Shown here: positions 14,720 through 36,740 of the stretch, piece by piece
Position numbering within the stretch: the first letter of the stretch is position 1
Layout of the letters: every line of letters starts with the position of its first letter
Source: a virus
DNA: 40,197 nt
IMG/VR virus record: IMGVR_UViG_3300025853_000226
Coordinates: 1-40,197 of that record
Strand: one strand, 5' to 3'
Made by a program: the position numbers and the translations under genes
The notes under the pieces: generated by a model
Seen by the model: only the letters and a program-made list of their open reading frames with translations
Databases searched by the model: none
Told to the model about the DNA's origin: nothing

Positions 14720-14729
14720 GGAGATAACT

Positions 14730-15587: not shown

Positions 15588-15590
15588 TTC

Positions 15591-15620
15591 TTGACAAGTG
15601 TTACACAAGAATGCTATTTT
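15591..15620 (+). promoter_or_regulatory. Candidate promoter ahead of the capsid gene
   Basis: TTGACA (15591-15596), 18-base spacer, TATTTT (15615-15620). It starts right after the scaffold stop and would begin a ~125-base leader that contains the structured element before the major capsid gene. Confidence 0.55.
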
Positions 15621-15628
15621 TGGTATAG

Positions 15629-15707: not shown

Positions 15708-15750
15708 AGCAAACTTCTAGTGTTCAACTTTTATTTTAGGGAGGCTGATA

Positions 15751-16635: not shown

Positions 16636-16652
16636 TAAGAGGAGATGAGAAT

Positions 16653-17156: not shown

Positions 17157-17179
17157 TCCTAATAAAGCTGAAGAAATCT

Positions 17180-17221
17180 AAAGGCGCACGCTAGTTATCG
17201 CTTGCGTGTGCCTTTTCTTTT
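17180..17221 (+). terminator. Rho-independent terminator after the capsid genes
   Basis: AAAGGCGCACGC (17180-17191) pairs with GCGTGTGCCTTT across an 8-11 base loop (12-bp stem with one G-U), followed by TCTTTTA. It would limit read-through from the capsid transcript into tail genes. Confidence 0.8.
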
Positions 17222-17234
17222 AGGGAGTGATTGT

Positions 17235-17885: not shown

Positions 17886-17887
17886 TC

Positions 17888-20218: not shown

Positions 20219-20658
20219 TACGTACCCGAGCGTTTCACGTGAAACATTATTTAAACATGGATTTTGGGGAGTTCCCTTTTAAGAACTGGGCCAGCAGTCT
20301 GACGGAAGAGCAGCTGTATCAGGTTGCGGAACAGGATTATTTCTTAACGTTAGAAACAACTGAAGGGGCCCCAATTATGGTTATAGGAGCTGTCCCTTTG
20401 AGCATAAACGTAAGCGAGGTTTTTATCTTGCCTGGCAAAGGCTGGACACATTATACAATTGAAGTTTGCCGGATACTTAAAGGGCATTTAAAGAACCTAA
20501 CCATATTTAACCATCGTATCCAAGCGCTTTGTCGAGGAGATGATGAAAAGTATGCAAAGTTTTTAGAGATGTTTGGTTTTGAATTAGAGGGGACGCTTCG
20601 ACGTTATAATGCGGCCGGAGATGACTACCACATGTACGCAATAATTTCAGAGGGTTGA
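20215..20658 (+). CDS. T7 gp13-like protein with acyltransferase (GNAT/DUF2833) fold
   Basis: 147 residues; starts MIRTRAFHVKHYLNMDFGEF and contains PGKGWTHYTIEVCRILKGHL with FEMFGFELEGTLRRY-like C-terminal features seen in GNAT-fold gp13 homologues, which assist virion assembly. The start ATG overlaps the nozzle stop as ATGA. The first codons contain a perfect 14-bp palindrome matching bacterial parS (see separate entry). Function in the virion is inferred from family and position. Confidence 0.72.
   Translation: MIRTRAFHVKHYLNMDFGEFPFKNWASSLTEEQLYQVAEQDYFLTLETTEGAPIMVIGAVPLSINVSEVFILPGKGWTHYTIEVCRILKGHLKNLTIFNHRIQALCRGDDEKYAKFLEMFGFELEGTLRRYNAAGDDYHMYAIISEG
20232..20245. promoter_or_regulatory. 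parS-like palindrome
   Basis: GTTTCACGTGAAAC, a perfect 14-bp palindrome. With flanks it matches the bacterial parS consensus TGTTNCACGTGAAACA at 15 of 16 positions; the only difference is C for the first T. It lies in codons 6-10 of the gp13-like gene. No ParB gene is in the window. Confidence 0.6.
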
Positions 20659-20659
20659 T

Positions 20660-21151
20660 ATGATAAAATTTGATCCACAACAGCGGATATGCCGAGACCC
20701 AGCGACTGCTTTATTTTTGACGTTAGGGGCGGTGTCTGCTTTTAGCAGTATTCAGGAGGGCAAGGAGCAGAAAAAAGCTCTTAATATGCAAGCAGACCAG
20801 CAAAGAGAGCAAGCCCGGCTGGCAGCGGTAGAAGCAGAAGAAGAGGCGACACGGCGCGAAGAAGAGAGGGATCGCACGCTGGCCACCCAACGCATGGCAT
20901 TTACGGCAAACGGGGTTAAGTTAACCCCAGCAGCAGGCTCCAGCATAGCTTTGATGGATGAGACGGCACGGCAGTTCAATTTAGAGATTCAAGCCGTTAG
21001 GCGTCGAGGGGCAGCTGAAACTAAATTTGGCTTTAGAGAAGCACAGATCAGTGAGAATAAAGGACGCGCAGCGTTGCTACAAGGATTCTCACAAGCGGCA
21101 GGGACGGCGTCTTCCACATTTGTGACAGGTAAAAAAGAGGGGATATTTTAA
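20660..21151 (+). CDS. Internal virion protein (T7 gp14-like)
   Basis: 163 residues. A hydrophobic ALFLTLGAVSAFSS near the N-terminus, then a long Gln/Glu/Arg-rich coil (ADQQREQARLAAVEAEEEAT) and the conserved RMAFTANGVKLTPAAGSSIA motif typical of gp14-type internal core proteins. The C-terminus FGFREAQISENKGRAALLQG is a helix. These proteins are ejected first and form the outer-membrane part of the DNA conduit. Stop and next start overlap at 21151 (TAATG). Confidence 0.82.
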   Translation: MIKFDPQQRICRDPATALFLTLGAVSAFSSIQEGKEQKKALNMQADQQREQARLAAVEAEEEATRREEERDRTLATQRMAFTANGVKLTPAAGSSIALMDETARQFNLEIQAVRRRGAAETKFGFREAQISENKGRAALLQGFSQAAGTASSTFVTGKKEGIF

Positions 21152-22716
21152 TGGCTAGGGTACCTCAACATTTTAGAGATAAATTAATTTCTTCCCGAAC
21201 TGGGGTGAATACTTTAGATACGTCAGCGGCGGATTCTGCTCGTGCTATTGGTCAAATGGCAAGTACCTTTCAGAAAGGGGTAGTTGAGTTTGAGGTAGCG
21301 AAACGCCAAGAGCTTATGAAGTCACAAGGGGCGAAGAAGAAAGCAGAGTTTCTGAACCAGTATGCAGAAGTCTCAAAAGAAATAAAGTCTCAGTATGCCG
21401 GAAATCCAGAAGAAGGGTTTAAAGTTTTAGAGCAGAAGACACAGGAGATCAAAGATAATATTTTATCCGGGGTGGAGAATTCCAGGTTTCAAGCGGACCT
21501 AGCCCCTGTGTTGGAGGGGTATGCGGCGGAGCACTCTGTGCGCAATAAAATGTGGCAATTAAATCAAATGGATTTAGCTGCAAAACAATTAAAGGTAGAC
21601 ACCTTATCAGATAATATTAGTGCCATCACTAAAGGTGCTACTGCCCAAGAATATAATGACATAGTCGGGGACCCCTCTTTTACAGAGCAAAGTTATATTG
21701 AAAGTTTTGGGCCTGAAGAAGGGGCTAAGGCATTTCAAGGGGCTAAAAATGCTTTGTTTCGTGCGAGAGCAGATTCCTTATTAGATCAAGGGCGTATTTT
21801 TGAAGCACAAGATTTCATTGAAAAGTCGCAAGAGCCTGACGGCAAGATCCGGGCAGAGGTAAAAGAAAATTTTGTAAAAGCTCAAAAAGGTTACAAGGCG
21901 AAACAATTTTTCCAAACGGTTAGTGCAGCTAGTATAGACGCAGTTGAAGTAGGGGAACAGATTGCGGCGGATGACATGACTATTGGAGCTATTGACGACC
22001 GTGTGCTGGAAATTTCAATGAAAGCTGAATTAGCAGAGACGCCTGAAGAGAAGGAAGTGTATCAGAAGTATGTAGGCATCTTAGCAGGGTTAAGAGACCT
22101 TAAACTTGAGCAAACCTTGTTGTCCGCAAAAGGTGATTTAGACGCAGAGACTAACCTACAGGCACAGTACCAAGAACTTTTCATTAAAAGTGAGGGCGGC
22201 GGTGTGGACCTTAGCTCAGAATTTTCTTTGAATGACTTCTTAGGGTTTCAGCGACAGCTTGTGGAGCAAGCCCAGGCGGGCAAAGTGTCAGCGAAGAATT
22301 TTAATAAATGGATGTTCTGGTCAAAAGTTGCTTTAACAGGGCAAGTGGAGAACCTCGAGGAAGAAGGGGGTTGGTTTTCAAAAGGGCAACGTCTTGAGTC
22401 TGACCCAAAAATACGAGGCAGGGTTAAAGATTTCTTAAGAGAATCACGAGCTTTAGGGTCTTCTTGGAAGACTTCTGTGCTTGAATATGTCTATGATAAC
22501 ATCCCTTCAAAAGAGCCTGATCAAATTAATGCTGACGTTCTGGGGGCGCTGTTTCAAAAAGGGAAGCTGTTTGCCACCTTAAAAGATAGAGGATACCCAG
22601 TTGAGATTATGGATACAAAAGTGGTCACAACACCGGCAGGGTCTTTTAATATCATAGGGCAGGACCAAGATGGTATGCCTATTGTTAACGTTGATTCATC
22701 GAGATTTGAGAACTAA
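21151..22716 (+). CDS. Internal virion / DNA ejection protein (gp15-like)
   Basis: 521 residues, mostly helical and hydrophilic (ADSARAIGQMASTFQKGVVE near the start; long charged helices after). No enzymatic motif. The position between gp14-like and the very large gp16-like gene, together with size and composition, fits the second internal core protein of the ejection conduit. Ends one base before the next start (TAATATG). Confidence 0.75.
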   Translation: MARVPQHFRDKLISSRTGVNTLDTSAADSARAIGQMASTFQKGVVEFEVAKRQELMKSQGAKKKAEFLNQYAEVSKEIKSQYAGNPEEGFKVLEQKTQEIKDNILSGVENSRFQADLAPVLEGYAAEHSVRNKMWQLNQMDLAAKQLKVDTLSDNISAITKGATAQEYNDIVGDPSFTEQSYIESFGPEEGAKAFQGAKNALFRARADSLLDQGRIFEAQDFIEKSQEPDGKIRAEVKENFVKAQKGYKAKQFFQTVSAASIDAVEVGEQIAADDMTIGAIDDRVLEISMKAELAETPEEKEVYQKYVGILAGLRDLKLEQTLLSAKGDLDAETNLQAQYQELFIKSEGGGVDLSSEFSLNDFLGFQRQLVEQAQAGKVSAKNFNKWMFWSKVALTGQVENLEEEGGWFSKGQRLESDPKIRGRVKDFLRESRALGSSWKTSVLEYVYDNIPSKEPDQINADVLGALFQKGKLFATLKDRGYPVEIMDTKVVTTPAGSFNIIGQDQDGMPIVNVDSSRFEN

Positions 22717-22717
22717 T

Positions 22718-25700
22718 ATGGCAGAACTACGACTAGACGAGGTGCAGAAAGCTTTAGATAAAATGGGGCAAGGAGGCCAGTCCCCCATTAAACCTGTGTC
22801 TCTAGATCAAATGAGTATGGAGAAGTTAGATATCTATAATGAGGAGCCAGAGATCGACAGAGCATCTTACGATCATTGGTATGAAAAAGTTATTGAAGGG
22901 ATGACAATTTCTGAAAATGCTTTTCTGGATACAGTAGGGGAACCAACCGCACAAGCGTTAAATTTTATACCTGATCTAACAAATAAAGTGGTTCTAGGGG
23001 CTACCAGTTTTATGGGGAATTTTGTAGAGGCTTTCTCCAGTAAAGAGAAATTCGCGCAAGAATTAAAAGAGTTGCCCATTATCAGTGATGCAATTGGGTT
23101 AGGAGGCTCCTTAGCTAATATACATGACCGAATGTTTGGGCCAGGCACAAAGGAAGAGAGAAAAACTAGGACTTCCGAGTATGCGCGGGGAGAGTTAGAA
23201 AAAATTAAGAAGGGGGCTTTTAAAGACCCTACTGCGGTAGATCCTGATAAAGAGTTTATGCCAGGTGCTAATGCCAATGTAGCAGAAAGATGGGGGAAAA
23301 GATTAAGAGCTTTAAGTTTTTATGGGTACGCAAATACTAAAGAGTTCCAACAAAGATTAGCTCAAGATGCGGATCACCCCATTCTATCTCAAGTAGGAGG
23401 GGCTTTTGGGAGCATCACTACTTCAGCATTGTTAGGTTCAGTCAACCCAAAATTAGCAATGTTAGCTATGGGCGGACACGTGGGGGCTAATCAGTATTTA
23501 GAGCAAGTTGCTAAGGGCGTTGACTGGAAACCTGCAGCAGGCTTTGGTGCCGCAGTAGGTGTAGGTGTGGGGGCTTTAGAGAATCTTTCACTAGGCATAT
23601 TGTTTAAAAGATACTCTTCTCGTCTAGCTTTAGCAGGGGATTCGGCGATTGTAAATGGTATAGAGGAGTTTTTGCAGAGTACTTTTGAATCGGGGGCGGA
23701 AGTTTTTGTCGGTGCGGAGGAGAGGACTCTTGGCAGTATTCTTAAGCAAGCCGCTTTTGAGGGGGCACTCGGTCTTGTTGGAGGAGGAGTAGCTGGCGCT
23801 ACTACCGTGCAAATAGCATATAGTCGGATGGACAGCTCTTTACGGAAATTGGACATCCCTAAAAAGCAGAGACATAAGATTATTATGAGGGCTGTTGCAG
23901 AAGGGTCAGATATAGTTGGGGATGTTCTTATGGAGGGGCTGGGCGTCGACAATGCTGATATTGATATTGTCAACAGCATTGCAGAAGGGAAGACGGATTC
24001 CAAAGAAGCTATACTTGAACTTCATCGTCGAATTAGAAGAAGGCAGAAAGAGAAAGGTATTGATACTTACTTAGAAGAAGATCCAGACGTTATAATTGCT
24101 GAACAACAGCAAGCAGACGCCTTAGAAGAGGCGCAGACGCGAGAAACCCCAATGAGCCCAGAAGAAGAGGTTCAGGTTGAGCAGAGGAAAAAGAGCAAGC
24201 CTTTTGGAGTTACGGAAGACATAAAGGAAGATGTAATTAAAGGGCGAGTACATCAACTGGACAGTGAAGTCACAAACATTGATCGAGAGCTTGACGGTCT
24301 TCAGAAAGAGCTAAAATTAAGAGAAGAAGCGGGGAAACCTGTCAAAGCTGTTCAAAATAAGTTAGAAAAACTCAGTAAGAAGAAAGACGCGCTAGACGAG
24401 GAAAGAGCAGGTCTTCTTACCGCAGAAGAGGTAGAGGTAGCTTCTTCTGAAGGCCAAACTGTGACAGAGAGAGATTTAGAAGCTCAAGCAGCCACGAAGA
24501 AGGATGTTAAAGTTAAGGGGAGTAAGCTTCAAGCTATTCGTAACCGAGCGGAAGCAGCCGCAGCTAAACGTACACGGCAAGAACTTACAGAAAAATTTAA
24601 GCAAGAGAAGGCAGATTTAACAGAAGCTCGTCAATCTTTGTTAGAGTATGTGCGAGCAGCCTTTAAAGGGCAAGACGTCCCTAAGAAATTTTTAACACGT
24701 ATAGCAAAAGTTACGCCGAGGAAACTGGAGACCTTTTTGAAAGAGGTTGATCAGGCGCGTTTAGATATTGTTAGACCTGCGTTAGTTAACCAAGCTCAGA
24801 CGATCTTAGATAAGGTTGCGCCAAAAGTTAAAGGCGGGAAATCGGTCGGGGTTCTTAAATCTGCGGCTCTCCAAGATGTAGCAAACGAATTGATTCGGGT
24901 CAGTAAGCTTGATAGCCAAACCGCCCAGCAACTCATCAAAAATAAACAAGAGCTTCTGGATAACTATCTTAATGAGGTAAAGGCTGAGGGGGGATCCGAG
25001 CAAGAGATTGACGTCGATAGATTAGCTTTTGAATTAGAAGTTCTTCAGAATGTAGCAGGACTAGAAGCTAAAAGTGAAGACGCTTTAATGGATTCTATAA
25101 AATATATTCAAGAGAAGGTAAAACTTCTAAAAGAAGGGCAGAAAGTAACTTATCAAATTCTACAAGAGAAAAGGGAGGCGGAACGAGCGCAAGCTATTAA
25201 AGAGATGGCACCTCGTAAAGGGTTTGACCCCGCTAAGTTTTTCCCTAAATGGGTTAAGAATTTCCACGGGTTCTCTGTCAATAATTTATCTTCAATGTTA
25301 CGTGCTTTAAGTAAAGTCAAAGATATTGATAACTCAGTTTTAGGAAAGAAAATTGCTGCTGTTGATGGGGCCCCTCGACGAGACGCAGCCTTTAATTTCA
25401 AATATATGGACGCGTTAGATAAAATAACTAAGAGAGTTTTTGACCTAAAGACTGACGCAGAACACCATCAATGGAAAATCGACCACTTTAAAGAGGGCGG
25501 GGGGTTTCTTAGTGAAGGTGAAGTAACTTTAAATAATGGAGAAGAAGGTGTCATTTCATTGACCAAAGCTGACGTGGGGTACTGGTGGCTTGTTACGCAT
25601 GACAGAGATGGTAATATCCTCCCTGAAGTTATGGAGGTGATTACTAATGAAAATCGGCGGAACGGTATTTTCGAGCAGGCGCAAGAAGAGCAATGGTCAG

Positions 25701-27415
25701 GGGAGAAAATTCAAGCAGAGCTTAAGAAGATAAAAGGCAACGCTATCCCACAAAGATATTTTGATGAGATGATGGCTAAGTTTGAGGCGGACCCTAGGAA
25801 CATAGAATTTGTTCAATCACAACGAGTCCTATACAACACTGTCTACTCCATAATTAACCCTGTTTATAGAATGTACAATGGGACAGATTTACCTCGTGTG
25901 GAAGACTATGTCCCTTGGCATAGAGATGTTGGTGGGGAATCTGAAGTTTTCTCGGCTTTAGATGATTTTAAGGAGATGATTCAAACTATACCGGTATCTG
26001 CAAAGCTTAGAACACCAGGAGCGAAAGCAGCTTTTAAACAGACGGGGGATATTGAAGTTTTTCAATATTTTATCCAAGAAATGGCACATTTTAATGCCTA
26101 TGCTCTCCCTATGAAAGATGTCATTAGTCTTCTGAGAAACAAAGATATTCGGCGAGCCATCAATGAGAATACCGACGGGAAAGAGCTTCAACGTGGGCAG
26201 TACCGAGATGGGGATACGTATAAGATGATAAGAGGGATGGCAGATTTAATTATGTCAAAAGGGCGGTCTAATAATGAAATGACCTTATCCCTATTTAACA
26301 CCTTACGTACAAATCTCTCCGTGGCATACCTAGGGGAACCTAGTAAAGGGGTGCTCCAGACTTCTTCTATGTGGATGGCTTTATCTGAACCAGATATTTC
26401 GTGGAGGGATTGGGCTGCGGGGGCGTGGGAATTTTTCAATGACCCAAAAGGGGCTTTGGAGATTTTAGATAAAGCACCAATGATGAAATTTAGATATAAA
26501 GATTTAATGATTGAAATGAAAAACGTAATTGACTCCATCAAAACGCGGAAGAAAAATGCTTTCACAGAAACACGTAAGAAAGCAGTGGACGCAGCTTTTT
26601 ATTTTGTTCGTAAAGGGAACCGTTTTGGGGCGGGACTTTCAGGGTATGTTGTTATGCGGAAAGTCTATAAAGAAACAGGGGATATAAATGAAGCGTATCG
26701 TCGTTTTGACCAGCACATTACCAATACTCAGCAATCAGCGGTTAACACACAGCTCGCACCTTTTCAAGTAGGACAATGGACAAAGATTGTATCTCAATTT
26801 CAGAGTGCCGTTATCCAGTATTCTAGGATATATGTTAGGTCATACGCTGACGTAGCGGCGGGCAGGATCTCTCTTCAAAAATTTGCCGATATCTTTTTGA
26901 TATTCCATGTTGTGATGCCAACAATGCGTTGGTTGTTAAAAGGATTGATTCGTGGTGGGGATTTTGATGAAGGCCAGTTAAAAAGAGATGTGATAATGGG
27001 GCCTCTTTCTGCGGGGTTTTTTATAACAGACTTACTCGAAATGGGAGTATCTATGTATCTAGGAGTCCACTCTTTTGCAGCAGGATCACCTCTAGCAGGC
27101 GCCGCAAATAAGATTAAAAACTCCGTGGCAAGGCTTAAAAAAATGATAGAGAAAAAGGTCGGGGGCAGACAAGTAGATGCGGCGGATTTAGCTTTTGCGT
27201 GGATTGAAGTGCTAGAAGAAGTCTCCGCGGTGACTTTACCTGTCCCCGGAGTTGCATATGATACCTTACAAGCATCAATTAAGGCGTCTCAAGGGGAGAT
27301 GTCTCCTACGGAAATCATGTCAGTTATCATGGGAGAATCGGTAGAATCTCTTGAGTTTTCAAAGAAAAAAGGTAATAATAAGAAGAGCCGTTTAAAGCGT
27401 CTTCAAGGGAGATAG
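22718..27415 (+). CDS. Very large internal virion / DNA ejection protein (gp16-like)
   Basis: 1565 residues; start at ATG 22718 just after the previous stop, in preference to an earlier in-frame start inside that gene. Residues ~75-230 carry hydrophobic helices (FIPDLTNKVVLGATSFMGNF), then a Gly/Ala-rich stretch (FGAAVGVGVGALENLSLGIL) that could span membranes. Residues ~450-800 are coiled coil. A conserved module VEDYVPWHRDVGGE follows around residue 1065. No lysozyme or transglycosylase motif of T7 gp16 type is seen. Likely forms the cytoplasmic-membrane part of the DNA conduit. Confidence 0.8.
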   Translation: MAELRLDEVQKALDKMGQGGQSPIKPVSLDQMSMEKLDIYNEEPEIDRASYDHWYEKVIEGMTISENAFLDTVGEPTAQALNFIPDLTNKVVLGATSFMGNFVEAFSSKEKFAQELKELPIISDAIGLGGSLANIHDRMFGPGTKEERKTRTSEYARGELEKIKKGAFKDPTAVDPDKEFMPGANANVAERWGKRLRALSFYGYANTKEFQQRLAQDADHPILSQVGGAFGSITTSALLGSVNPKLAMLAMGGHVGANQYLEQVAKGVDWKPAAGFGAAVGVGVGALENLSLGILFKRYSSRLALAGDSAIVNGIEEFLQSTFESGAEVFVGAEERTLGSILKQAAFEGALGLVGGGVAGATTVQIAYSRMDSSLRKLDIPKKQRHKIIMRAVAEGSDIVGDVLMEGLGVDNADIDIVNSIAEGKTDSKEAILELHRRIRRRQKEKGIDTYLEEDPDVIIAEQQQADALEEAQTRETPMSPEEEVQVEQRKKSKPFGVTEDIKEDVIKGRVHQLDSEVTNIDRELDGLQKELKLREEAGKPVKAVQNKLEKLSKKKDALDEERAGLLTAEEVEVASSEGQTVTERDLEAQAATKKDVKVKGSKLQAIRNRAEAAAAKRTRQELTEKFKQEKADLTEARQSLLEYVRAAFKGQDVPKKFLTRIAKVTPRKLETFLKEVDQARLDIVRPALVNQAQTILDKVAPKVKGGKSVGVLKSAALQDVANELIRVSKLDSQTAQQLIKNKQELLDNYLNEVKAEGGSEQEIDVDRLAFELEVLQNVAGLEAKSEDALMDSIKYIQEKVKLLKEGQKVTYQILQEKREAERAQAIKEMAPRKGFDPAKFFPKWVKNFHGFSVNNLSSMLRALSKVKDIDNSVLGKKIAAVDGAPRRDAAFNFKYMDALDKITKRVFDLKTDAEHHQWKIDHFKEGGGFLSEGEVTLNNGEEGVISLTKADVGYWWLVTHDRDGNILPEVMEVITNENRRNGIFEQAQEEQWSGEKIQAELKKIKGNAIPQRYFDEMMAKFEADPRNIEFVQSQRVLYNTVYSIINPVYRMYNGTDLPRVEDYVPWHRDVGGESEVFSALDDFKEMIQTIPVSAKLRTPGAKAAFKQTGDIEVFQYFIQEMAHFNAYALPMKDVISLLRNKDIRRAINENTDGKELQRGQYRDGDTYKMIRGMADLIMSKGRSNNEMTLSLFNTLRTNLSVAYLGEPSKGVLQTSSMWMALSEPDISWRDWAAGAWEFFNDPKGALEILDKAPMMKFRYKDLMIEMKNVIDSIKTRKKNAFTETRKKAVDAAFYFVRKGNRFGAGLSGYVVMRKVYKETGDINEAYRRFDQHITNTQQSAVNTQLAPFQVGQWTKIVSQFQSAVIQYSRIYVRSYADVAAGRISLQKFADIFLIFHVVMPTMRWLLKGLIRGGDFDEGQLKRDVIMGPLSAGFFITDLLEMGVSMYLGVHSFAAGSPLAGAANKIKNSVARLKKMIEKKVGGRQVDAADLAFAWIEVLEEVSAVTLPVPGVAYDTLQASIKASQGEMSPTEIMSVIMGESVESLEFSKKKGNNKKSRLKRLQGR

Positions 27416-27418
27416 ATT

Positions 27419-28546
27419 ATGACAGTTACAACACTTGCAACAAAACCAAGAAGGGTCCAACTCACCGGCAACGGGGTTCTGACAGATTTTGATTTTGATT
27501 TTAAAATTTATGAGAACACAGAAGTATTGGTCTATCAGATTGACACCGATAGTGTGGCGACTCTTCAAACAATAACAACAGATTATACAGTAACTTTTGA
27601 TACCGCAGCGGAGACGGGAACAATTTCATTTGTCACGCCGCCTACAAATCTTTACAAAGTGTTGATGATCGGAAACTCTGCTTACAAACAAGCCGCAGAT
27701 ATCCCTATTGGCGGAGGCTTTTCAGAGACGGTTATTGAGAAAGGGTTAGACCGTTTAGCCATTCAGATTCAACAGCTAAAAGAATTAGTTGACCGGGCTG
27801 TTTCTTTGCCAGACACGTCATCTCTTTCTTCTGTAGAACTTCCAGACGCAAGTGCCAGTAAGTTAATCGGTTGGAACGCGGGGGCTGATGCTTTAGAGAA
27901 TAAGGCAGTTACTAGTATTTCAAGTGAGATTGATATCACATTAGGGGGGTCTGACGCAGGTAAGCTCGTCGCTGTTAACGCAGCCAGTAACGGCTATGAA
28001 GTTAGAACTCCAAATGACTATACAGATACAGTTATTGTGGCAGCAGATGAAATTTTATTTGGAGACGCATCTGCCGGTAATGCAATTAAAAAAGACACTG
28101 TTCAAGGTATTTTAGACCTTGTCCCTGACTTAGATATTAACGGTAAAACATCTGCCACTATCACAGCTAGTGATGAAATTATTTTAGCAGATGCGGACGA
28201 CTCCAACGCTCTTAAAAAAGATACAGTTCAAGGTATCCTTGACCTTGTGTCCACAACGGGGGCTATTAAAGGATGGGTTTCTTTTGACGCATCGAGTGGA
28301 ACTCCGACAATAAAAGATCACTATAATGTCGCAAGCATTACAGATAATGGGGCAGGTGACTTCACTATTGTATGGGACACAGATTTTGCTAATGCCAACT
28401 ATGCCGTTGTAGGTACGACAGATGATAATTGTGTTATGGGATTCCCAGCGGCGTTTGCGACAACAGGAACTCAGGTCAGAACCCGAAGTGGCGGAACCTT
28501 AACTGATTTAAATCGCAACTGTGTTATCGCAATAGGAGATCAATAA
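27419..28546 (+). CDS. Tail fibre protein with T7 gp17-type N-terminus
   Basis: 375 residues. MTVTTLATKPRRVQLTGNGV with LTDFDFDFKIYENTEVLVY is the Phage_T7_tail N-terminal domain that anchors fibres to the nozzle. IEKGLDRLAIQIQQLKELVD begins a trimeric coiled-coil. A repeated unit follows: DEILFGDASAGNAIKKDTV and DEIILADADDSNALKKDTV, each with QGILDL. The C-terminal ~100 residues are a compact beta domain (VSFDASSGTPTIKDHYNVAS). No chaperone domain is evident, so distal receptor-binding parts may be encoded in following genes. Confidence 0.85.
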   Translation: MTVTTLATKPRRVQLTGNGVLTDFDFDFKIYENTEVLVYQIDTDSVATLQTITTDYTVTFDTAAETGTISFVTPPTNLYKVLMIGNSAYKQAADIPIGGGFSETVIEKGLDRLAIQIQQLKELVDRAVSLPDTSSLSSVELPDASASKLIGWNAGADALENKAVTSISSEIDITLGGSDAGKLVAVNAASNGYEVRTPNDYTDTVIVAADEILFGDASAGNAIKKDTVQGILDLVPDLDINGKTSATITASDEIILADADDSNALKKDTVQGILDLVSTTGAIKGWVSFDASSGTPTIKDHYNVASITDNGAGDFTIVWDTDFANANYAVVGTTDDNCVMGFPAAFATTGTQVRTRSGGTLTDLNRNCVIAIGDQ

Positions 28547-29271: not shown

Positions 29272-30096
29272 ATGGCCGAAGATATCCTTGAGAAGTACAA
29301 TAAGTTAAAAGCGGAAACAGTTGCGATGAGTGACATTATTAATAAACACTCTGACCATATTAAGAAGCAAGTTACACAAATAAAGAGTCTAACCGACGAG
29401 ATAAAACTTTCTGAAGATAGGTTAGAGGATCTTAAAAAGCAGAAAGAGGTAATTGAGCAATCTAAGAATGAAGCTTTAGAAAAGAAACAAGAGCAACTTA
29501 CGCGAGACCAAGAGGCTTTGGATAAAGATAGACATTTCTGGAAGGACGAGGTCAACGCATTTATCTTAAAGAAAGAGGATCTTGAAAGGCGGCAGAAAGA
29601 CTTAGATGAGCGTGAGATTGTGTTGGGTAAAAAACAAGCGGAGCTTAATTCAAAAGAACAAGATTTGGCACGTTTGCAAGAAGAATTATCAGAGGTAAAA
29701 GAAGACTTAAGCTCCCAAAATAAGTATCTATCCGCTCGGGAGGAGAAGATAATTCAAGCAGAGAAAGAACTAGTAGAAAAGAAGAAGTCTTCAGCTGCTA
29801 TCCAAGCAGGGCTTTTAGCTAAAGAAGAGACACTTAAAACAAACCAAGAAGTTTTTCGGATTAGGGCTTCTGAAGTTGACCAACTTGCAACCAATTTAGA
29901 AGAACAAAAAACAGCGCTTTTAAATAGAGAAAAAGAGGTTGCAGAGAAAGAGGAATTTTTAGCGGATGAAATTAATAAACTTGAGGGGCGTCAGGCACAG
30001 ATTGAACTAGAAGAGCTCGAAGTCCAGGCTAAAAAAGCTAAAGTAGATGCAATAGTTCATCGGAAAAACCTTGAAGGGTTGGTAAACAATGATTAG
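29272..30096 (+). CDS. Long coiled-coil protein, 274 aa
   Basis: Start placed at ATG 29272 (MAEDILEKYNKLKAETVAMS) after CAGGAGAGATAAT; the longer frame overlaps the upstream gene. Almost the whole protein is charged heptad coil (KSLTDEIKLSEDRLEDLKKQ and similar), with no catalytic motif. Could be a structural spacer of a fibre or a cytoplasmic scaffold. The last 8 bases overlap the next gene (ATGATTAG). Confidence 0.72.
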   Translation: MAEDILEKYNKLKAETVAMSDIINKHSDHIKKQVTQIKSLTDEIKLSEDRLEDLKKQKEVIEQSKNEALEKKQEQLTRDQEALDKDRHFWKDEVNAFILKKEDLERRQKDLDEREIVLGKKQAELNSKEQDLARLQEELSEVKEDLSSQNKYLSAREEKIIQAEKELVEKKKSSAAIQAGLLAKEETLKTNQEVFRIRASEVDQLATNLEEQKTALLNREKEVAEKEEFLADEINKLEGRQAQIELEELEVQAKKAKVDAIVHRKNLEGLVNND

Positions 30097-32077
30097 ATTG
30101 TTCATGCTTCTGATTTGTCTTTTCGCGCCTGTGCTGGCTTACGCCTCTTGTGAGACAATTGTAGATGGCCTCTGCCAAGATGATGTGGACATTGTGGTAT
30201 ACCAAGGAACATCTTCTTCCCCTTCGACCTCTTTGACGGGGGAGGCTCGGATATACTTTGACTCTGGCACTGGGAAATTGCAATGCTCTGAGGATGGAAA
30301 TTCTTATGTTGATTGTGTTGATAATGGAAGCGGTTCTCTTACCCTTCAGAACGTAACAGACAACGGCGCAACCACAGACAATGATATCACGATTGATAAT
30401 GGCGGGTTATCTGATAATAACTTAAATCTAAATGGTTCAACGCATAGTCAATTAACATCAACCGCAACAGATTTATTTCAGATTGAGCACCCGACAGGAA
30501 CAAAGAGATTGACTATTAACTCTTCTGGAAACGCAGGTATTGGAATTACAGAACCAGATGGTAAATTGCATGTACATACGGGAAATGCCGGTTCAGTGAC
30601 AGCAGAAGGTGAAGCAGATGATCTTGTTGTTGAGAACAGCACTAGCGGAGGTATAAGTATTCTTGCACCCGATTCGTCAAATTCAAATATTCGTTTTGGC
30701 TCCCCAACTACTAATTCAGGTGCATTAGTGCGCTGGAATTATAATGCAGGACAAATGACTATAGGTACAAATAAAGCCGATGGAATAACTCGCTTCATGA
30801 GCGGAGCATTTAGTGAATCTATGCGTATTGATTCTAGCGGAAACGTCGGTATTGGCTCGACTTCGCCCATGGTAAAGCTTGATATTGCTGGAGGATCTAA
30901 CGTAAAGAGTCGTGCAAGAATTACGAACACGTCGAATAGTCAAATACTTCAGTTGAGTACAAATTCAGATTCAATTAGTAACCCATTTGTAGGTTCTGAA
31001 AGTGATCATAATTTCTCACTTATCTCAAATAACACAGAAGCATTAACAATTGACTCCTCCGGAAACGTAGGTATCGCAGACACAACACCAGACGCAACCT
31101 TAGAGATCGTTGAATCAGGCACAACTCCATTTATGATTAGTAATGGGGCTAGTGGTGATGGCGACTTCTTCACTGTTACCACTGCAGGCAACGTCGGTAT
31201 TGGCTCCACAGCACCATCATCTTTATTGGACGTAACAGGATCGTCCCCAAAGATCGTCGTTAATGCAACATCGGGTCTACCTGAAGTTCAGTTGACTGAC
31301 GGTGGAGTTGATGAGTTTGCTATGGGATACGATACAGGAAGCAACTTTCTTTATTTCAGTGAGGGTGGCGTCGGCAATCATATGACTATCCGTGACGGTG
31401 GGAATGTTGGTCTTGGAACAAACTTACCTTCAGCTGATCTTGAGTTGCGTAGTGACGCAGCGACATCTCACACAATATTTAAGATCACAAGTGCGACAAA
31501 CAACGCTTATGATCCAGCGATTCAGTTCTATAAAGGTGCAACGCCAGCAGCTCAATGGACAATTGGTAATGACGGGTCAACAAATGACTTCTCAATCGCT
31601 GAGGGGTCGGCGTTAGGTACAAATGACAGGCTTGTTATTAAGGATAGTTCAGGCAACGTAGGTATTGGTACTAATTCACCACAGCATGAACTTGATATTG
31701 CAGGTGATGTAATCATATCTGGTCAGCAACATGGATTCCTAGAGACGCTTGACAAAACACTTGAAGATCCAGCTGATGCAGACTCTTTTCTTATCTATAA
31801 AGCCCCAGCGGCTTTAACTATTACAGATATTGACTGTATCGTTGATCCAGCAGATACAGGGGAATCAGTTGTTATTGACATTCAAGAATGTGATGGAACA
31901 GGTGATTCATGCACAACAGTTGATGCCACAATTACGTGTGACAATGACGGTGCCGCAGATGATGGGTCTTTATCAAATGGAGCGATTGATTCAGGTGATT
32001 GGATCAATTGGGATATCGGAACGGTAACAGGAACAGTAACGCAAGTGAGTGTGACGGTTAAATATGAACTTGATTAA
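30089..32077 (+). CDS. Exported fibre-like repeat protein with Sec signal peptide
   Basis: 662 residues. MIRLFMLLICLFAPVLAYAS is a classical signal peptide with AYA|S cleavage after residue 19. The mature protein has at least six ~25-100-residue-spaced copies of S-S-G-N-V-G-I-G-x-T-x-P-x-x-x-L-D-[IV], a repeat typical of phage and bacterial fibre/spike shafts. The C-terminal domain (after GDVIISGQQHGFLETLDKT) is a beta domain with IDCIVDPADTGESVVIDIQ. Fibres normally assemble in the cytoplasm, so a signal peptide is odd: either an exported surface adhesin or a hydrophobic anchor. No intramolecular chaperone seen. Confidence 0.75.
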   Translation: MIRLFMLLICLFAPVLAYASCETIVDGLCQDDVDIVVYQGTSSSPSTSLTGEARIYFDSGTGKLQCSEDGNSYVDCVDNGSGSLTLQNVTDNGATTDNDITIDNGGLSDNNLNLNGSTHSQLTSTATDLFQIEHPTGTKRLTINSSGNAGIGITEPDGKLHVHTGNAGSVTAEGEADDLVVENSTSGGISILAPDSSNSNIRFGSPTTNSGALVRWNYNAGQMTIGTNKADGITRFMSGAFSESMRIDSSGNVGIGSTSPMVKLDIAGGSNVKSRARITNTSNSQILQLSTNSDSISNPFVGSESDHNFSLISNNTEALTIDSSGNVGIADTTPDATLEIVESGTTPFMISNGASGDGDFFTVTTAGNVGIGSTAPSSLLDVTGSSPKIVVNATSGLPEVQLTDGGVDEFAMGYDTGSNFLYFSEGGVGNHMTIRDGGNVGLGTNLPSADLELRSDAATSHTIFKITSATNNAYDPAIQFYKGATPAAQWTIGNDGSTNDFSIAEGSALGTNDRLVIKDSSGNVGIGTNSPQHELDIAGDVIISGQQHGFLETLDKTLEDPADADSFLIYKAPAALTITDIDCIVDPADTGESVVIDIQECDGTGDSCTTVDATITCDNDGAADDGSLSNGAIDSGDWINWDIGTVTGTVTQVSVTVKYELD

Positions 32078-32999
32078 ATCACTATTAACAGCGCTCTTTC
32101 TCATATCTTGTGGTTATGTATACGCAGCAGGTTGTGATGCTAACACGCATTTATTGATCCATTTTGATGAGGCTGACACATCAACCACGATTGCTGAAAC
32201 AGATTGTGATTCAAGTGGAGCTAAGACTATAACAGCTAATGGCGATGTTCAGACAGATAGTGGTGTCACGAAGTTTGGGAACACATCTCTATTTGATGGA
32301 ACGGGGGATTATTGGACACTTGCTGATTCAGCGGATTGGGATATGTTTGCTTCCTCAAGTGGAGATTGGACAGTTGATGTTTGGATTAAACATGCTAATA
32401 CATCGGTATCACAGGTGTTTATTGCTCATAGTGAAGGAAATGCCAAGCAATGGTTTATCCGTGATGAGTTCGGGTTTAGTGGCAAGCTGGAGCTTAGGGT
32501 TCTGGATAACTCTGATGCAGGTACAACAGAGCTTGCTATGGACTGCACAGGTTTAAGCGACACAGACTGGCATCATGTAGTCGTTGGGAAAGTTGGAAGT
32601 GAGTATGGTCTTTACACTGATGAAGCCCAGTGTGAATACGCTTCTACAACAAACACCTTAGATGCAACAGGTCTTTTGTATATCGGCAGACGTATTGATT
32701 CAGGCGATCCTATGCACATGAATGGAAGTATGGACGAGGTTCACATTCAGAACAGCAACCATTTAAGTTTATCTCCACAGTCTGATGACAGCGATACATA
32801 TACCGCCCCAACGGTTGCTTATTCAGCCGCTGCTGGGTCAACTAGAAATAGATTAATAACCTACCGAAGAGAGTTTAGAAAGCTGCCTACAGGCGGCTAT
32901 GAACGAATTGTGACGAAGTATAATTTTATTCCAAAGGGATGGATCGATGAAGAAACTAATGCTCTTAGGGCTGATGTTAAGCATCTCAACCGTAGTTAG
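32064..32999 (+). CDS. Exported LamG/concanavalin-like lectin-domain protein
   Basis: 311 residues. N-terminal MNLIKSLLTALFLISCGYVY is a signal peptide, with both a VYA|A site and a lipobox-like LISC. Residues ~45-235 are a laminin-G-like jelly roll: VQTDSGVTKFGNTSLFDGTG, DWTVDVWIKHANTS, LSDTDWHHVVVGKVGSEYGL and MNGSMDEVHI are the standard strand motifs. Likely binds sugars. The tail (RRFRKL-like basic strand, IPKGWIDEETNALRADV) is charged. It overlaps the fibre-like gene by 14 bases, so both are coupled. Confidence 0.78.
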   Translation: MNLIKSLLTALFLISCGYVYAAGCDANTHLLIHFDEADTSTTIAETDCDSSGAKTITANGDVQTDSGVTKFGNTSLFDGTGDYWTLADSADWDMFASSSGDWTVDVWIKHANTSVSQVFIAHSEGNAKQWFIRDEFGFSGKLELRVLDNSDAGTTELAMDCTGLSDTDWHHVVVGKVGSEYGLYTDEAQCEYASTTNTLDATGLLYIGRRIDSGDPMHMNGSMDEVHIQNSNHLSLSPQSDDSDTYTAPTVAYSAAAGSTRNRLITYRREFRKLPTGGYERIVTKYNFIPKGWIDEETNALRADVKHLNRS

Positions 33000-33270
33000 T
33001 GCGCAGGTCGTACTTATTGACAGAGAAGTTCGTGAGATTGAAAAGAAGAAAGCTATTCTTTCAAGATTAGCTGATAAAGATGTCGATGAAAAATTTGTAA
33101 CACAAAGACAAATTGACCAGCTTGAGGCTAGGGTTAAAGAATTGAGAAGTAAAGGGGCGATGACACTTAAAGAATTAACAGTTCAAGAGATAGCTAAGTC
33201 AGCCGCTTATGAGGAAAGAATTGCAGCACAGAAGTTTTTAAAGAGACAAACAAGCAATATCAACTGGTAA
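32947..33270 (+). CDS. Exported coiled-coil protein, 107 aa
   Basis: Signal peptide MKKLMLLGLMLSISTVVSAQ (SA|Q), then a charged helical mature part (REVREIEKKKAILSRLADKD, QIDQLEARVKELRSKG). Probably periplasmic and oligomeric. It overlaps the lectin gene by 53 bases in another frame. Third consecutive gene with a Sec signal. Function unknown; it might be a periplasmic coupling or i-spanin-like factor, but it lacks a stable anchor. Confidence 0.68.
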   Translation: MKKLMLLGLMLSISTVVSAQVVLIDREVREIEKKKAILSRLADKDVDEKFVTQRQIDQLEARVKELRSKGAMTLKELTVQEIAKSAAYEERIAAQKFLKRQTSNINW

Positions 33271-33280
33271 AGGAGAGAGC

Positions 33281-33580
33281 ATGAAACACCTAATATTAAC
33301 ACTAGCTTTATTAATTCCGAGTTCAGCAATGGCAGCAACATTGTCAATCACTATTCCAGATAATCAAGTAAACCGAGTGCAAGATGCTTTCGCTAATGAG
33401 TATGGTTATCAGGAACAGGTCTTAGATGAGAATGGCGATTTGGTTGACAATCCTGTTACTAAGGCGCAGTTCACTAAATCCAAAGTAGTTAGCTACATTA
33501 AGAATACTGTGCGATCAAGTGAGAAATCAGAGGCAGCAAAAACAGCGGAAAGCAATCTAACAAGCGTTACTTTAAACTAG
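33281..33580 (+). CDS. Exported small protein, 99 aa
   Basis: MKHLILTLALLIPSSAMAAT is a clear signal peptide (AMA|A). The mature part, LSITIPDNQVNRVQDAFANE, continues with YGYQEQVLDENGDLV and a helical, Lys/Ser/Ala-rich end. I-P-D-x-x-x-x-R-V-x-x-A-F is a motif seen in small phage proteins near fibre and lysis genes; no function assigned. RBS AAAGGAGAGAGC. Confidence 0.7.
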   Translation: MKHLILTLALLIPSSAMAATLSITIPDNQVNRVQDAFANEYGYQEQVLDENGDLVDNPVTKAQFTKSKVVSYIKNTVRSSEKSEAAKTAESNLTSVTLN

Positions 33581-33588
33581 GGATAAAA

Positions 33589-33927
33589 ATGGTGACTAAA
33601 CAGAAAGAAGAATATGGGCTTTTCAACGGTAGGCGAGATGCAGACCAGTATGTTAAGGGCTATTTAAAAGGAATAGCTTTGATATCTGGAGTTGGTTTAA
33701 CTGTTCTCTTAGGCTTTTCAAGTTGGGTCGCTGTTAATATTAATGCCCATGACACACGTTTAACTATCATCGAATCAAGCCGATTTACGACTGCTCATGG
33801 AGTAGAGATCAAAGAAAGAGTTGTTGTTAATGAAAAAAACTTTGCTGTTATTCAGGAACAGTTAAAAAGTATGAACGAAGATATAAGAGACATGAAAAGG
33901 ATTTTGGAGAAATATGTTACTAGGTAA
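33589..33927 (+). CDS. Membrane protein with one TM and coiled-coil tail (holin/spanin-like candidate)
   Basis: 112 residues. A charged N-terminus of ~26 residues (MVTKQKEEYGLFNGRRDADQ), one TM (IALISGVGLTVLLGFSSWVAV), then a hydrophilic coiled tail (VIQEQLKSMNEDIRDMKRIL). This single-TM-plus-coil design resembles i-spanins or the XhlA-type lysis accessories. Located at the end of the virion genes, the usual spot for lysis genes, although the endolysin itself is far away at 6048-6629. Confidence 0.65.
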   Translation: MVTKQKEEYGLFNGRRDADQYVKGYLKGIALISGVGLTVLLGFSSWVAVNINAHDTRLTIIESSRFTTAHGVEIKERVVVNEKNFAVIQEQLKSMNEDIRDMKRILEKYVTR

Positions 33928-34351
33928 ATTAATCATGGTTCTTTTATCTGGGTTGTTCTGGCGCATGGGCGGCTCAGATAAATACAGCAAGCTCTTCAGG
34001 CGAATAGGCTCTGCTGCTTGCATGTCATATATCGTAGGATCGTTATGGGCGGTGCCTTTTATATTCTGGGGATGCACATCTTACTTTGGTTGGATTAACA
34101 GATTCTTACCAGTTAAGGACAAAGAGCGTGAATATTGGTGGAACTTTCTGGCAGAGAATCTTGTCATACAGATGACAGTTTTGTTTGTTAATCCATCTGT
34201 TAAGAGCGCAATCTTAGCTGTTATATTTGCAAGCATCGTTACCTTTGGTAAAGTCTGGATGGATGAAAATTTAACCAAAGCTGACATTAAAAGTGAAATA
34301 TGGCACGGGAGTGGTAACGCTCTTGGCTTATTAATAAACATACTAAACTAG
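33914..34351 (+). CDS. Hypothetical membrane protein, 145 aa
   Basis: 145 residues with several hydrophobic stretches: MLLGKLIMVLLSGLFWRMGG, ACMSYIVGSLWAVPFIFWGC, and a second half with NLVIQMTVLFVNPSVKSAIL and AVIFASIVTFGKVW. The F-W-R-M-G-G motif near the start is notable. Start overlaps the previous gene by 14 bases. Multi-pass membrane protein of unknown function; a holin role is possible. Confidence 0.65.
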   Translation: MLLGKLIMVLLSGLFWRMGGSDKYSKLFRRIGSAACMSYIVGSLWAVPFIFWGCTSYFGWINRFLPVKDKEREYWWNFLAENLVIQMTVLFVNPSVKSAILAVIFASIVTFGKVWMDENLTKADIKSEIWHGSGNALGLLINILN

Positions 34352-34360
34352 GAGAATATT

Positions 34361-34537
34361 ATGGAATGGTTACAAACAAATTGGGTGCAAGTAGGGGTTA
34401 TTGCTTTTGCAATTCACACAGCTTTAAAAGCAATTGCAGAGGCCATAGACAAAGATCCAAAAACTGATAATAAGTTTGAAAGAGCAATTAAATTCTTTGG
34501 GAACTTGATTGGGTATCTGTTCGGGAAAAGAAAGTAA
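34361..34537 (+). CDS. Small membrane-associated protein, 58 aa
   Basis: ATG at 34361 with AGGAGAATATT upstream; 58 residues MEWLQTNWVQVGVIAFAIHT then ALKAIAEAIDKDP and a basic end IKFFGNLIGYLFGKRK. The first helix is amphipathic/hydrophobic and could insert in membranes. The stop and next start overlap (TAATG). A small holin-like protein is a candidate. Confidence 0.65.
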   Translation: MEWLQTNWVQVGVIAFAIHTALKAIAEAIDKDPKTDNKFERAIKFFGNLIGYLFGKRK

Positions 34538-34764
34538 TGGCGTGGTCTGATTATTTCAAGGTCTTTGGTTTTGGGGAGGCTGTTGTTGAGTGGTTTGAAA
34601 ACAGACCTTTTCGTCTCAAAGAAAAAGCCTTGGAGGCGGCCACCTATTATATGGAGATTGATACCCATAAAACTTATAAAGGCAGGCCTGTCGGGATAGT
34701 TGAAGCTTCAGATCTTAAAAAACATCTTAAAAAACGCTTTGACGCTTGGAAAGACGGGGTATGA
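34537..34764 (+). CDS. Hypothetical protein, 75 aa
   Basis: 75 residues: MAWSDYFKVFGFGEAVVEWF, then a positively charged helix region and a final KKHLKKRFDAWKDGV. No signal peptide or TM. Linked by TAATG to the upstream gene and by ATGA to the O-antigen ligase-like gene. Function unknown. Confidence 0.65.
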   Translation: MAWSDYFKVFGFGEAVVEWFENRPFRLKEKALEAATYYMEIDTHKTYKGRPVGIVEASDLKKHLKKRFDAWKDGV

Positions 34765-35915
34765 AGCGTTTAGTTATTGCCTCGTTCATTCTCATAGTCT
34801 CCTGTACTGGGCTTGAAGGGTTCGCTAATGCTTGGGACGCTAAAGAAGCATTGGCTTTATTCTGCGCATTGATGACCTTCGCTCTGCATATTAGACATAC
34901 CCCAATAAAACCTCTTAATTTTGGGGTATGTTTGGTAGTGGGCTACCTGCTTCTACACCCTTTGATAACCCCTCCTTTAATCTCAAGCAACCCTGCCTAC
35001 ACTGCGATCTTTGATTTAGCTTTATATAAACCTTTGGCGCAGCTTCTGATTTACTTTTTATTCTTTCTAGCTGTTTCAAGCGCAGACTTCTCAAAGAGGG
35101 ACATCAAAAATATCATAAACACTTTCTGTCTAACAGCCATTATCCTTTCTTTGTATTGCTTCCTTCAGTTCTTTCAGTTAGACCAGTTTCATACTTTGAT
35201 CACAACGGGGAACGCTCCAAAGACAGACGGAAAGTTGATAACAGCTACCTTAGGGCATCCAAATCAATGTGGCATATTTATCGCCTCTTTGCTACCTTTT
35301 GTGTTGCTTCGGTCAAAGAAGGCAACCATTATCCCGACCATTGCTATTTTACTTTCCCAGAGCATGTTAGCATATGGGGGTGCAGTAATTGCGTTTGCTG
35401 GGTACCTTTTCTTCCGGGGCACCAGAGCCCACAGAGTTCTTTTAATCGCCTTAGGGTTGCTTGGTTCGTTTGTCGCGGTTATTGCTATTAGTAAATATCC
35501 GTTTCTTTCTAGCGGGCGTTTGACAATCTGGTCCAGCGCGTGGGATCTGCTAATCCACAACCCACACGGGCAGCCACGGCTCATAACTGGGTATGGCATG
35601 GGCACTTTTGTTTTTCTCGTCGGGGGAACTTTAGAACATCCCTCCCGATATATGCAAAATGATGCTCTGCAATTTCTTTTTGCTAATGGGCTGATAGGTT
35701 TAGGAGGGTTAATTTTTTTGTTTATTTGTTTGCTTAAGAAAGCAATCCCCTTTATAATGGGACATAAAGAGGCTATGGTCTTCATGCTCTCTTTTTTAAT
35801 TTTGTTAGCGTGTTCTTTTGGATCTTTTGTATTTCAAGTTGAGCCGCATAGATTCTTTTCAGTTTTTTTACTTGGCTATTTATTTAACCTTACTAGGGGG
35901 AAACAAAATGCGTAA
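34761..35915 (+). CDS. O-antigen ligase/polymerase-like (Wzy_C) membrane protein
   Basis: 384 residues; start at ATG 34761 overlapping the previous TGA (ATGA), preferred over an earlier in-frame start. About ten hydrophobic segments. The family's landmarks are present: GHPNQCGIFIASLLPFVLL in the middle, the large periplasmic loop beginning GRLTIWSSAWDLLIHNPH and ITGYGMGTFVF, and SRYMQNDALQFLFANGLIGL, which is the usual H/N-rich Wzy_C box followed by a GL-x-G-L helix. Such enzymes join or polymerise O-antigen on lipid carriers. In a phage this points to host-surface glycan change (superinfection exclusion) rather than a virion role. Confidence 0.78.
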   Translation: MKRLVIASFILIVSCTGLEGFANAWDAKEALALFCALMTFALHIRHTPIKPLNFGVCLVVGYLLLHPLITPPLISSNPAYTAIFDLALYKPLAQLLIYFLFFLAVSSADFSKRDIKNIINTFCLTAIILSLYCFLQFFQLDQFHTLITTGNAPKTDGKLITATLGHPNQCGIFIASLLPFVLLRSKKATIIPTIAILLSQSMLAYGGAVIAFAGYLFFRGTRAHRVLLIALGLLGSFVAVIAISKYPFLSSGRLTIWSSAWDLLIHNPHGQPRLITGYGMGTFVFLVGGTLEHPSRYMQNDALQFLFANGLIGLGGLIFLFICLLKKAIPFIMGHKEAMVFMLSFLILLACSFGSFVFQVEPHRFFSVFLLGYLFNLTRGKQNA

Positions 35916-36291
35916 ACTTTTCACTGTATTAGCTATTCTTACAATGTTAGCTACACCTGCTTTTGCAGGGAAACTTACTGTAAACTCAACCAGCCACGGG
36001 CAGTTCGACGACCTTAAAATTTTAGGAGCTGAGAGTTCGGCAGTATCTGGAAACGAAGCTACTATTGACCTTCGTGAGTTAATGCAAAGCTCAACAACTG
36101 GCGCAGCGGTTGTGTTAACTTTAGACCAAGATGATGTTGATGAAAGTCTGATCGACTTCCAGTGCCAAGCTACTGACGCAACTGATAGTTGCTCCCACCA
36201 TATTACAACAGGTGCAGCTAAGGCAGGAGCAATTAAAGTTGATTTGAATGGTTCTGAAAAATGGATCTGGATCTACGAAGATTCTGATTAA
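35908..36291 (+). CDS. Exported small protein, 127 aa
   Basis: Start placed at ATG 35908 (AGGGGGAAACAAAATG); a longer frame overlaps the ligase-like gene. MRKLFTVLAILTMLATPAFA is a clear signal peptide (AFA|G). The mature part, GKLTVNSTSHGQFDDLKILG, is beta-rich and ends GSEKWIWIYEDSD; it has two cysteines in VDFQCQATDATDSCSHHI-like context that could form a disulfide. Last rightward gene; its stop overlaps the opposing RuvC stop. Function unknown. Confidence 0.72.
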   Translation: MRKLFTVLAILTMLATPAFAGKLTVNSTSHGQFDDLKILGAESSAVSGNEATIDLRELMQSSTTGAAVVLTLDQDDVDESLIDFQCQATDATDSCSHHITTGAAKAGAIKVDLNGSEKWIWIYEDSD

Positions 36292-36740
36292 TTAAGTTTT
36301 AATCTTGCATATTCAGCAAGCAGTAAGCAGTCGCATAGTTCTTTATCAGTTTTTGTTATAGGAGACCAGTCGGGGAACAGTCTGCGAGCCTCAATAAAAG
36401 CAACTTCTTTGGCCGCTAACCCCTTCCTTTTGCCGCCGTACATAAACTTCGTCCAGACTGTTGACCTGACCTCGATATGCTTCAATTTACTTAAATTAAG
36501 AAAGGCTTTCCATACTTCAAAAGCTCTGCCAAATGTAAAGGCGGAGCTTCTGGAGCCAACAGGGAAAGCGTTAACAAGTTCTAAAGCCACACCCCTTACA
36601 TCGTGCATGTTAAGCAACCTATAGATCTCCTGGTAGTCAAATTCATTGGCCACCAGGGGGAATCTATAGACTTCATAAGAACCTGAACCGTCAACAAAAG
36701 CTATCCCACCTTTCTTACCTGGATCTATCCCACACCACAT
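36288..36740 (-). CDS. RuvC-like Holliday junction resolvase
   Basis: 150 residues. GIDPGKKGGIAFVDGSG gives the first catalytic Asp (D6), ALELVNAFP the glutamate (E54), and KTDKELCDCLLLAEYA the C-terminal aspartates (D132, D137), the RuvC-type RNase H fold. It would cut branched DNA before packaging. It is the last gene of the leftward replication block and meets the late operon tail-to-tail with a 4-base overlap. Its start abuts DUF3310. Confidence 0.85.
   Translation of the reverse strand: MWCGIDPGKKGGIAFVDGSGSYEVYRFPLVANEFDYQEIYRLLNMHDVRGVALELVNAFPVGSRSSAFTFGRAFEVWKAFLNLSKLKHIEVRSTVWTKFMYGGKRKGLAAKEVAFIEARRLFPDWSPITKTDKELCDCLLLAEYARLKLN

Follow-up and report, generated by a model that had tools for sequence, protein, structure and literature searches.

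The end of the late operon of an uncultivated podovirus encodes two proteins, one fibre-like and one of lectin type, that are both predicted to be exported through the Sec pathway, together with three small proteins that carry signal peptides of their own. The usual assumption is that the tail fibres and receptor-binding domains of phages do their work on the virion, and a search of the literature found no report of Sec-exported phage fibres. We regard the observation as real and unusual, see in it phage proteins of receptor-binding type that would have been converted into Sec-exported ones, and hold the function that we infer for them to be plausible. The reading that we tentatively prefer, and that we judge to fall only a little short of probable, is that these late proteins would work at the infected cell's envelope, or on what remains of the cell, by occupying glycan receptors.

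Genome context

The DNA analysed here (the window) is a virus record of 40,197 bases from water samples, assigned to the T7-like podoviruses; end repeats were searched for in it and none was found. On the plus strand, from 10807 to 28546, PHROG matches identify in order a terminase, a T7-type portal, the major head protein, tail tube proteins, internal virion proteins and the N-terminus of a T7-type tail fibre. The assignment rests on the portal, the tail tube proteins, the internal virion proteins and the fibre N-terminus, and the same genes bear out the podovirus late operon proposed in a preliminary description of this DNA. Replication genes lie on the minus strand, with a primase/helicase recognised by a family match and a DNA polymerase judged from sequence. 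Searches of the window for tRNA and Rfam families found none, so no clue to the host comes from there.

By portal sequence the nearest contigs are fragments and one contig of 43.9 kb, G001, whose portal is 71% identical. Known phages are distant by the same measure (MW202485 at 34%, HTVC010P-type pelagiphages at about 27%). Misassembly of the cassette was ruled out by two separate metagenome assemblies that cover it, one (L015) with one mismatch in 11.8 kb and the other (L002) identical across 4.5 kb; a further contig (L003) spans the portal region.

Gene content of the cassette

The genes at the end of the late operon are the following, where SP denotes the signal peptide, SP score the value described in the next section and TM a transmembrane segment.

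27419..28546 (+): T7-type tail fibre, 375 aa; PHROG tail protein/fibre N-terminus, E 7e-19; SP score -0.52
29272..30096 (+): coiled-coil protein, the last non-exported gene before the cassette; AGGAG 7 nt before ATG 29272; no signal peptide
30089..32077 (+): fibre-like protein, 662 aa, predicted exported; SP score 5.71; PHROG tail fibre, E 8e-22; PDB Bd2133 MAT fibre, E 4.4e-7
32064..32999 (+): LamG (concanavalin A-like) protein, 311 aa, predicted exported; Pfam PF13385, 48.9 bits; SP score 4.32
32947..33270 (+): small helical/coiled-coil protein, 107 aa, SP 1-19, predicted exported; SP score 4.34
33281..33580 (+): small protein, 99 aa, SP 1-18, predicted exported; SP score 5.47; AAGGAG ribosome site
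33589..33927 (+): protein with one TM (29-47) and a coiled coil, XhlA- or inner-spanin-like; PHROG holin, E 0.0025
33914..34351 (+): four-TM membrane protein, holin candidate from its TM profile
34361..34537 (+): one-TM protein, 58 aa, TM 11-29 from its TM profile
34537..34764 (+): soluble protein, 75 aa; no convincing family in searches
34761..35915 (+): membrane protein resembling the Wzy_C superfamily, 384 aa, with about 10 TM; Pfam Wzy_C below cut-off (E 1.4e-4); overlaps the gene before it by ATGA
35908..36291 (+): small beta-rich protein, 127 aa, SP 1-20, predicted exported; SP score 5.27

The coupled gene order that had been described was confirmed, with overlaps at 30089/30096, 32064/32077, 32947/32999, 33914/33927, 34537/34537, 34761/34764 and 35908/35915. 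Through the 53-nt overlap at 32947-32999, the signal peptide of the 32947 protein is for the most part read, in another frame, from the 3'-terminal part of the LamG gene. The 27419 product, in which no signal peptide, LamG or Pfam domain was found, is presumed to be the real virion fibre. Family searches returned nothing for the 29272 protein, no convincing family for the 32947 protein and no significant relative for the 33281 protein. The 35908 protein has two mature cysteines (86 and 95) and a low-confidence beta model (pLDDT 60), with which a fold search gave no match with E below 0.001. Beyond the cassette, the minus-strand gene at 36288-36740 has no Pfam or NCBIfam match; its product begins MWCGIDPGKKGGIAFVDG, which we take to resemble RuvC-like resolvases.

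Signal peptides and cysteines

Signal peptides were scored with a crude measure calibrated on 123 proteins of E. coli K-12, with a cut-off of at least 4. At this cut-off 14 of 17 SPase I proteins were recovered, while among 101 others only actP, a 12-TM protein, was flagged and none without later TM segments. The five genes named in the preliminary description (30089, 32064, 32947, 33281 and 35908) all pass as having Sec signal peptides, and among the remaining genes without later TM segments, in a window of about 52 genes, none reaches 4. To put this in context, seven of 666 genes (1%) pass in 79 viral loci, at most two in any one locus, and against this background five signal peptides in a block of 10 genes have a P of about 3e-8; chance clustering was thus ruled out.

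That the signal-like N-termini are uncleaved anchors or go unused, the proteins staying in the cytoplasm or the virion, gains some ground from the predictor being a crude one and not SignalP. We nevertheless give this explanation very little credence, because all five N-termini are good in the n-, h- and c-regions and are clustered, and because of the pattern of cysteines. The mature proteins contain 8, 4, 0, 0 and 2 cysteines (30089, 32064, 32947, 33281 and 35908, respectively), always an even number, and their cysteine content is 1.16% against 0.42% in 17 other late proteins, a difference of 2.7 times (p 0.004). Moreover, none of the four cysteines of the LamG protein is matched in an alignment with eleven LamG domains from non-exported proteins, that is, from proteins of G001, L016, L017, L018 and Acidovorax phage ACPWH that lack a signal peptide. 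The pattern in the LamG protein suggests real export into an oxidising compartment and would suit disulfide formation in the periplasm. Concerning lipoproteins, no lipobox was found in 32947, 33281 or 35908. In the LamG protein the sequence LISC is a possible lipobox at Cys16, with an alternative SPase I site after residue 21, and the protein may be a lipoprotein instead.

The fibre-like protein and its relatives

The 30089 protein consists of a signal peptide (residues 1-19, at 30089-30145) with a cleavage site between AYA and SCE, an N-terminal domain (20-135), six NVGIG repeats of beta-prism type (136-545) and a C-terminal domain (546-662). The six-copy repeat noted earlier is thus present at the protein level, five copies being seen at the DNA level. 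Four cysteines lie in the N-terminal domain and four in the C-terminal one, with none in the repeats, and there is no S74 domain. Searches gave no recognised family for the C-terminal 117 aa, and neither end domain has a relative in 50,697 phages.

The solved structures nearest to the repeats are Bdellovibrio Bd2133 (phmmer E 4.4e-7) and two other fibre proteins. All of these are mosaic adhesive trimer (MAT) fibres of Bdellovibrio bacteriovorus, a family with Bd2133 and Bd3182 among its members, and MAT fibres possess a signal peptide, a conserved N-terminal domain, a trimeric beta-prism and a variable tip; members of the family are displayed on the surface of the predator and one of them binds prey glycans (PMC10769870). 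The 30089 protein has in common with them the signal peptide, the NVGIG beta-prism repeats, a C-terminal tip past the repeats and, as in the NS74 subfamily, the lack of S74; it differs in being encoded by a lytic phage and in the eight cysteines of its end domains. In MAT fibres a conserved beta-rich domain of about 130 aa follows the signal peptide. The 30089 protein has a region of that length, but no similarity to the cellular YQG-type N-terminal domains was detected, the alignment of Bdellovibrionota N-termini being very shallow. We describe the architecture as MAT-like but do not file the protein as a MAT.

This likeness allows another function to be considered, in which the exported fibres are adhesive and, in the way that MATs attach to prey, fasten the infected cell or what remains of it to nearby cells or to particles, so that progeny would be released near new hosts. 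The domain order of a non-S74 MAT, the homology of the repeats to Bd2133 and the lectin-type fold of LamG all speak for it. However, the N-terminal domain that defines MATs was not detected, no route outward is known and the interval between late expression and lysis is short, and we consider this function unlikely.

Signal peptides in the repeat family were counted among ORFs with a complete 5' end, the virus of the window being excluded; the ORFs are the best-scoring matches of two scans, and the counts are not population rates. A signal peptide is found in 1 of 66 viral and 19 of 57 cellular ORFs, and a hydrophobic N-terminus in 1 of 66 and 29 of 57, respectively. The single viral case with a signal peptide (5764-8247 of L065, IMGVR_UViG_3300046786_000638) belongs to an unrelated phage contig; its fibre has an S74-type tail-fibre end, as judged from PHROG matches, and two nearby proteins have hydrophobic N-termini. 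This case suggests that the arrangement with an exported fibre arose more than once.

Seven cellular loci (L135, L147, L153, L169, L180, L185 and L209, from Patescibacteria, Ignavibacteriae, Bdellovibrionota and others) encode NVGIG-repeat proteins, mostly with a hydrophobic or signal-peptide N-terminus and with a common YQG-type N-terminal domain. MAT-like exported fibres may thus be distributed much more widely than Bdellovibrio.

Because signal peptides, paired cysteines and an architecture of cellular rather than viral type coincide, Sec export of the fibre-like and lectin-type proteins, as predicted from sequence, is well supported, and this part of the preliminary description holds. A classical role in the virion becomes less likely in consequence.

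The LamG protein and the question of a virion role

The LamG assignment was confirmed by a PF13385 match above the cut-off of 27.6 bits, although the AF2 model of the protein is poor (pLDDT 43). Its closest relatives by sequence are domains of G001 (whole-protein E about 1e-50, identity about 34%), where LamG occurs as four stretches (Pfam 170 bits) in a protein of 1432 aa with a T7-type fibre adaptor start and no signal peptide. With an identity of only about 34%, a receptor specificity common to both would be a guess. The LamG relatives in Rhizobium and Acidovorax phages are also tail-region proteins without an export signal. The fold is therefore homologous, but in the tail fibres of G001 and Rhizobium phage RHph_Y60 it is part of non-exported virion proteins, while the 32064 protein stands alone, is predicted to be exported and has four extra cysteines. 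We take the case of G001 to show that the LamG domain belongs, elsewhere in the lineage, to receptor-binding parts of the virion. Homologous clusters lacking signal peptides had been named as a finding that would speak against a role at the host surface; they were found in part, in the LamG of the G001 tail fibre, but the signal peptides of the present virus remain.

The repeat family of the 30089 protein occurs just past the T7-type tail fibre in HTVC168P (gp41), Ran (gp1) and S-CBP3 (S-CBP3_0055), that is, in pelagiphages, a marine podovirus and cyanopodoviruses; in the pelagiphage and the marine podovirus one small gene lies between. In the examples examined no signal peptide is present, whereas the 30089 protein is predicted to be exported. 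This gene position, and LamG being a tail-fibre domain in G001, could mean that the fibre and the lectin are virion parts made by an unusual route, maturing in the periplasm for the sake of their disulfides and attaching to virions after lysis. Such a route seems to us distinctly unlikely, since a T7-type fibre is already present and the three small exported proteins would go unexplained; moreover, we know of no phage that builds its tail by periplasmic maturation and attachment after lysis.

The cassette is also not an ordinary feature of relatives: G001, MW202485 and HTVC010P are without exported fibre or LamG and have at most lysis-type lipoproteins or small membrane-anchored proteins. In G001 this place (5759-11633, minus strand) is occupied by other small genes, with fibre-like and beta-rich products that lack signal peptides; the late operon thus ends in a variable cassette. 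Transfer from a known phage was rejected as well. Among 50,697 phages no source was found, with no relative of the Wzy_C-type protein or of the 33281 protein, and in viral contigs these two, the 33914 protein and the fibre-like protein match the same virus only.

Lysis-type genes and the Wzy_C-type protein

The exported genes are interleaved with membrane genes of lysis type. The 33589 protein looks like a lysis-type protein, and the 33914 protein has marginal similarity to a membrane protein at the same place in G001; both look like lysis genes, similar types of which occupy that place in G001. It could be argued that the small exported proteins and the neighbouring membrane proteins are spanin-like or lysis-timing factors, with the fibre and the lectin as passengers: 32947 and 33281 directly precede the XhlA-like and four-TM genes, and in G001 lipoproteins of o-spanin type are found in the same place. 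We hold this to be quite improbable, as the small proteins 32947, 33281 and 35908 are without a lipobox and the LamG protein and the 662-aa fibre would remain unexplained. No endolysin was recognised in the late operon. Outside it, on the minus strand at 6048-6629, a protein of 193 aa with a hydrophobic N-terminal segment weakly matches SleB/Hydrolase_2 (E 0.0015 in Pfam and 2e-5 for NCBIfam SleB, neither reaching the cut-off) and is a candidate SAR or exported endolysin.

The Wzy_C-type gene most likely starts at ATG 34761 and not at TTG 34746. Its Pfam match covers the full domain with 22.1 bits, below the curated cut-off of 31.7, a large loop carries the motifs GRLTIW and QND, and the general motifs of the family are present. 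In E. coli WaaL the residues R215, R288 and H338 are reported to be important and to be common to PglL (PMC3643930). In a pairwise MAFFT alignment with WaaL, R288 is kept while R215 is replaced by Gly and H338 by Gln, at low identity and with an uncertain alignment around R215. The gene had been described as O-antigen ligase-like; the resemblance to the superfamily stands, but with two of the three residues missing, O-antigen ligation is doubtful. Within the superfamily the protein may be of polymerase type, or an altered or inhibitory form. A search for a bacterial source, run without a positive control, gave nothing in 7 plus 299 genomes.

An alternative is that the protein is an O-glycosyltransferase of PglL type acting on its exported neighbours. 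Its GHPN motif, which we take to resemble motifs of the Wzy_C superfamily, would agree with this, as would the overlap of 8 nt with the exported gene 35908. Most candidate PglL genes are reported to adjoin possible target proteins (PMC3643930). The His and one Arg common to WaaL and PglL are, however, Gln and Gly here, and we consider this activity very improbable.

Proposed role at the envelope of the infected cell

According to the reading that we prefer, in which glycan receptors are occupied by exported proteins, the end of the late operon would supply the MAT-like fibre together with the lectin-type LamG protein and three small companion proteins, which the host Sec machinery would export to the periplasm before lysis and which would fold there with disulfide bonds. 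Their targets would then be glycan receptors, either on the infected cell's envelope or, after this has opened, on the debris; with these receptors masked, progeny and rival phages would be kept off a cell that is already spent. As for the Wzy_C-type membrane protein, it may change the assembly of surface polysaccharide or compete in it. In another phage, free receptor-binding protein blocks adsorption (PMC12946066). Against masking it should be noted that, as the cassette is interleaved with lysis-type genes, its expression is presumably late, which would be less useful for classical superinfection exclusion.

The cassette encodes no outer-membrane secretion route that we could find. Without an outer-membrane transport system or a certain lipobox, surface exposure before lysis is only a proposal. 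Read directly from the sequence are the signal peptides, the operon structure, the homologies of LamG and of the fibre repeats, the cysteine pattern and the relation to the tail-fibre LamG domains of G001; that the proteins are in fact secreted and displayed outside the cell, bind glycans and mask receptors is what we infer. The preliminary description had proposed a host-surface cassette rather than a part of the virion: export is well supported and a virion role less likely, while its enzymatic component is weakened by the missing WaaL residues, and surface display, coating, a block to superinfection and binding of neighbours may or may not follow from export. As to origin, a lytic phage may have taken receptor-binding modules of virions (the fibre repeat and LamG), added Sec signal peptides and disulfides, and come to secrete the products late, either as decoys or as fibres for adhesion, in what would be the phage equivalent of the Bdellovibrio MATs; this we put forward tentatively, as an origin that is credible without being probable.

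Known systems offer partial parallels. Llp and Cor of T5 are superinfection-exclusion proteins, and PblA and PblB of the Streptococcus mitis phage SM1 are, we assume, tail proteins. PblA and PblB are likewise encoded by a phage, serve as adhesins and act on the surface of the infected bacterium, but, unlike the cassette, they belong to a prophage of a Gram-positive and their transport to the surface needs holin and lysin (PMC2920869). The phages D3 and P22 convert the O antigen (PMC11436027). Such converters and exclusion proteins such as Llp and Cor are also phage products that change or mask envelope receptors, yet they are sugar-modifying enzymes or small lipoproteins, whereas the cassette consists of fibre and lectin proteins related to receptor-binding domains.

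If the proposal is correct, phages would put fibres and receptor-binding domains to a second use, secreting them to work at the infected cell's envelope, which would explain some of the odd fibre genes of metagenomic viruses and would connect phage fibres to the fibrous adhesins that predatory and other bacteria export. The proposal also offers a simple screen, in which late operons are searched for genes of fibres or lectins that carry signal peptides.
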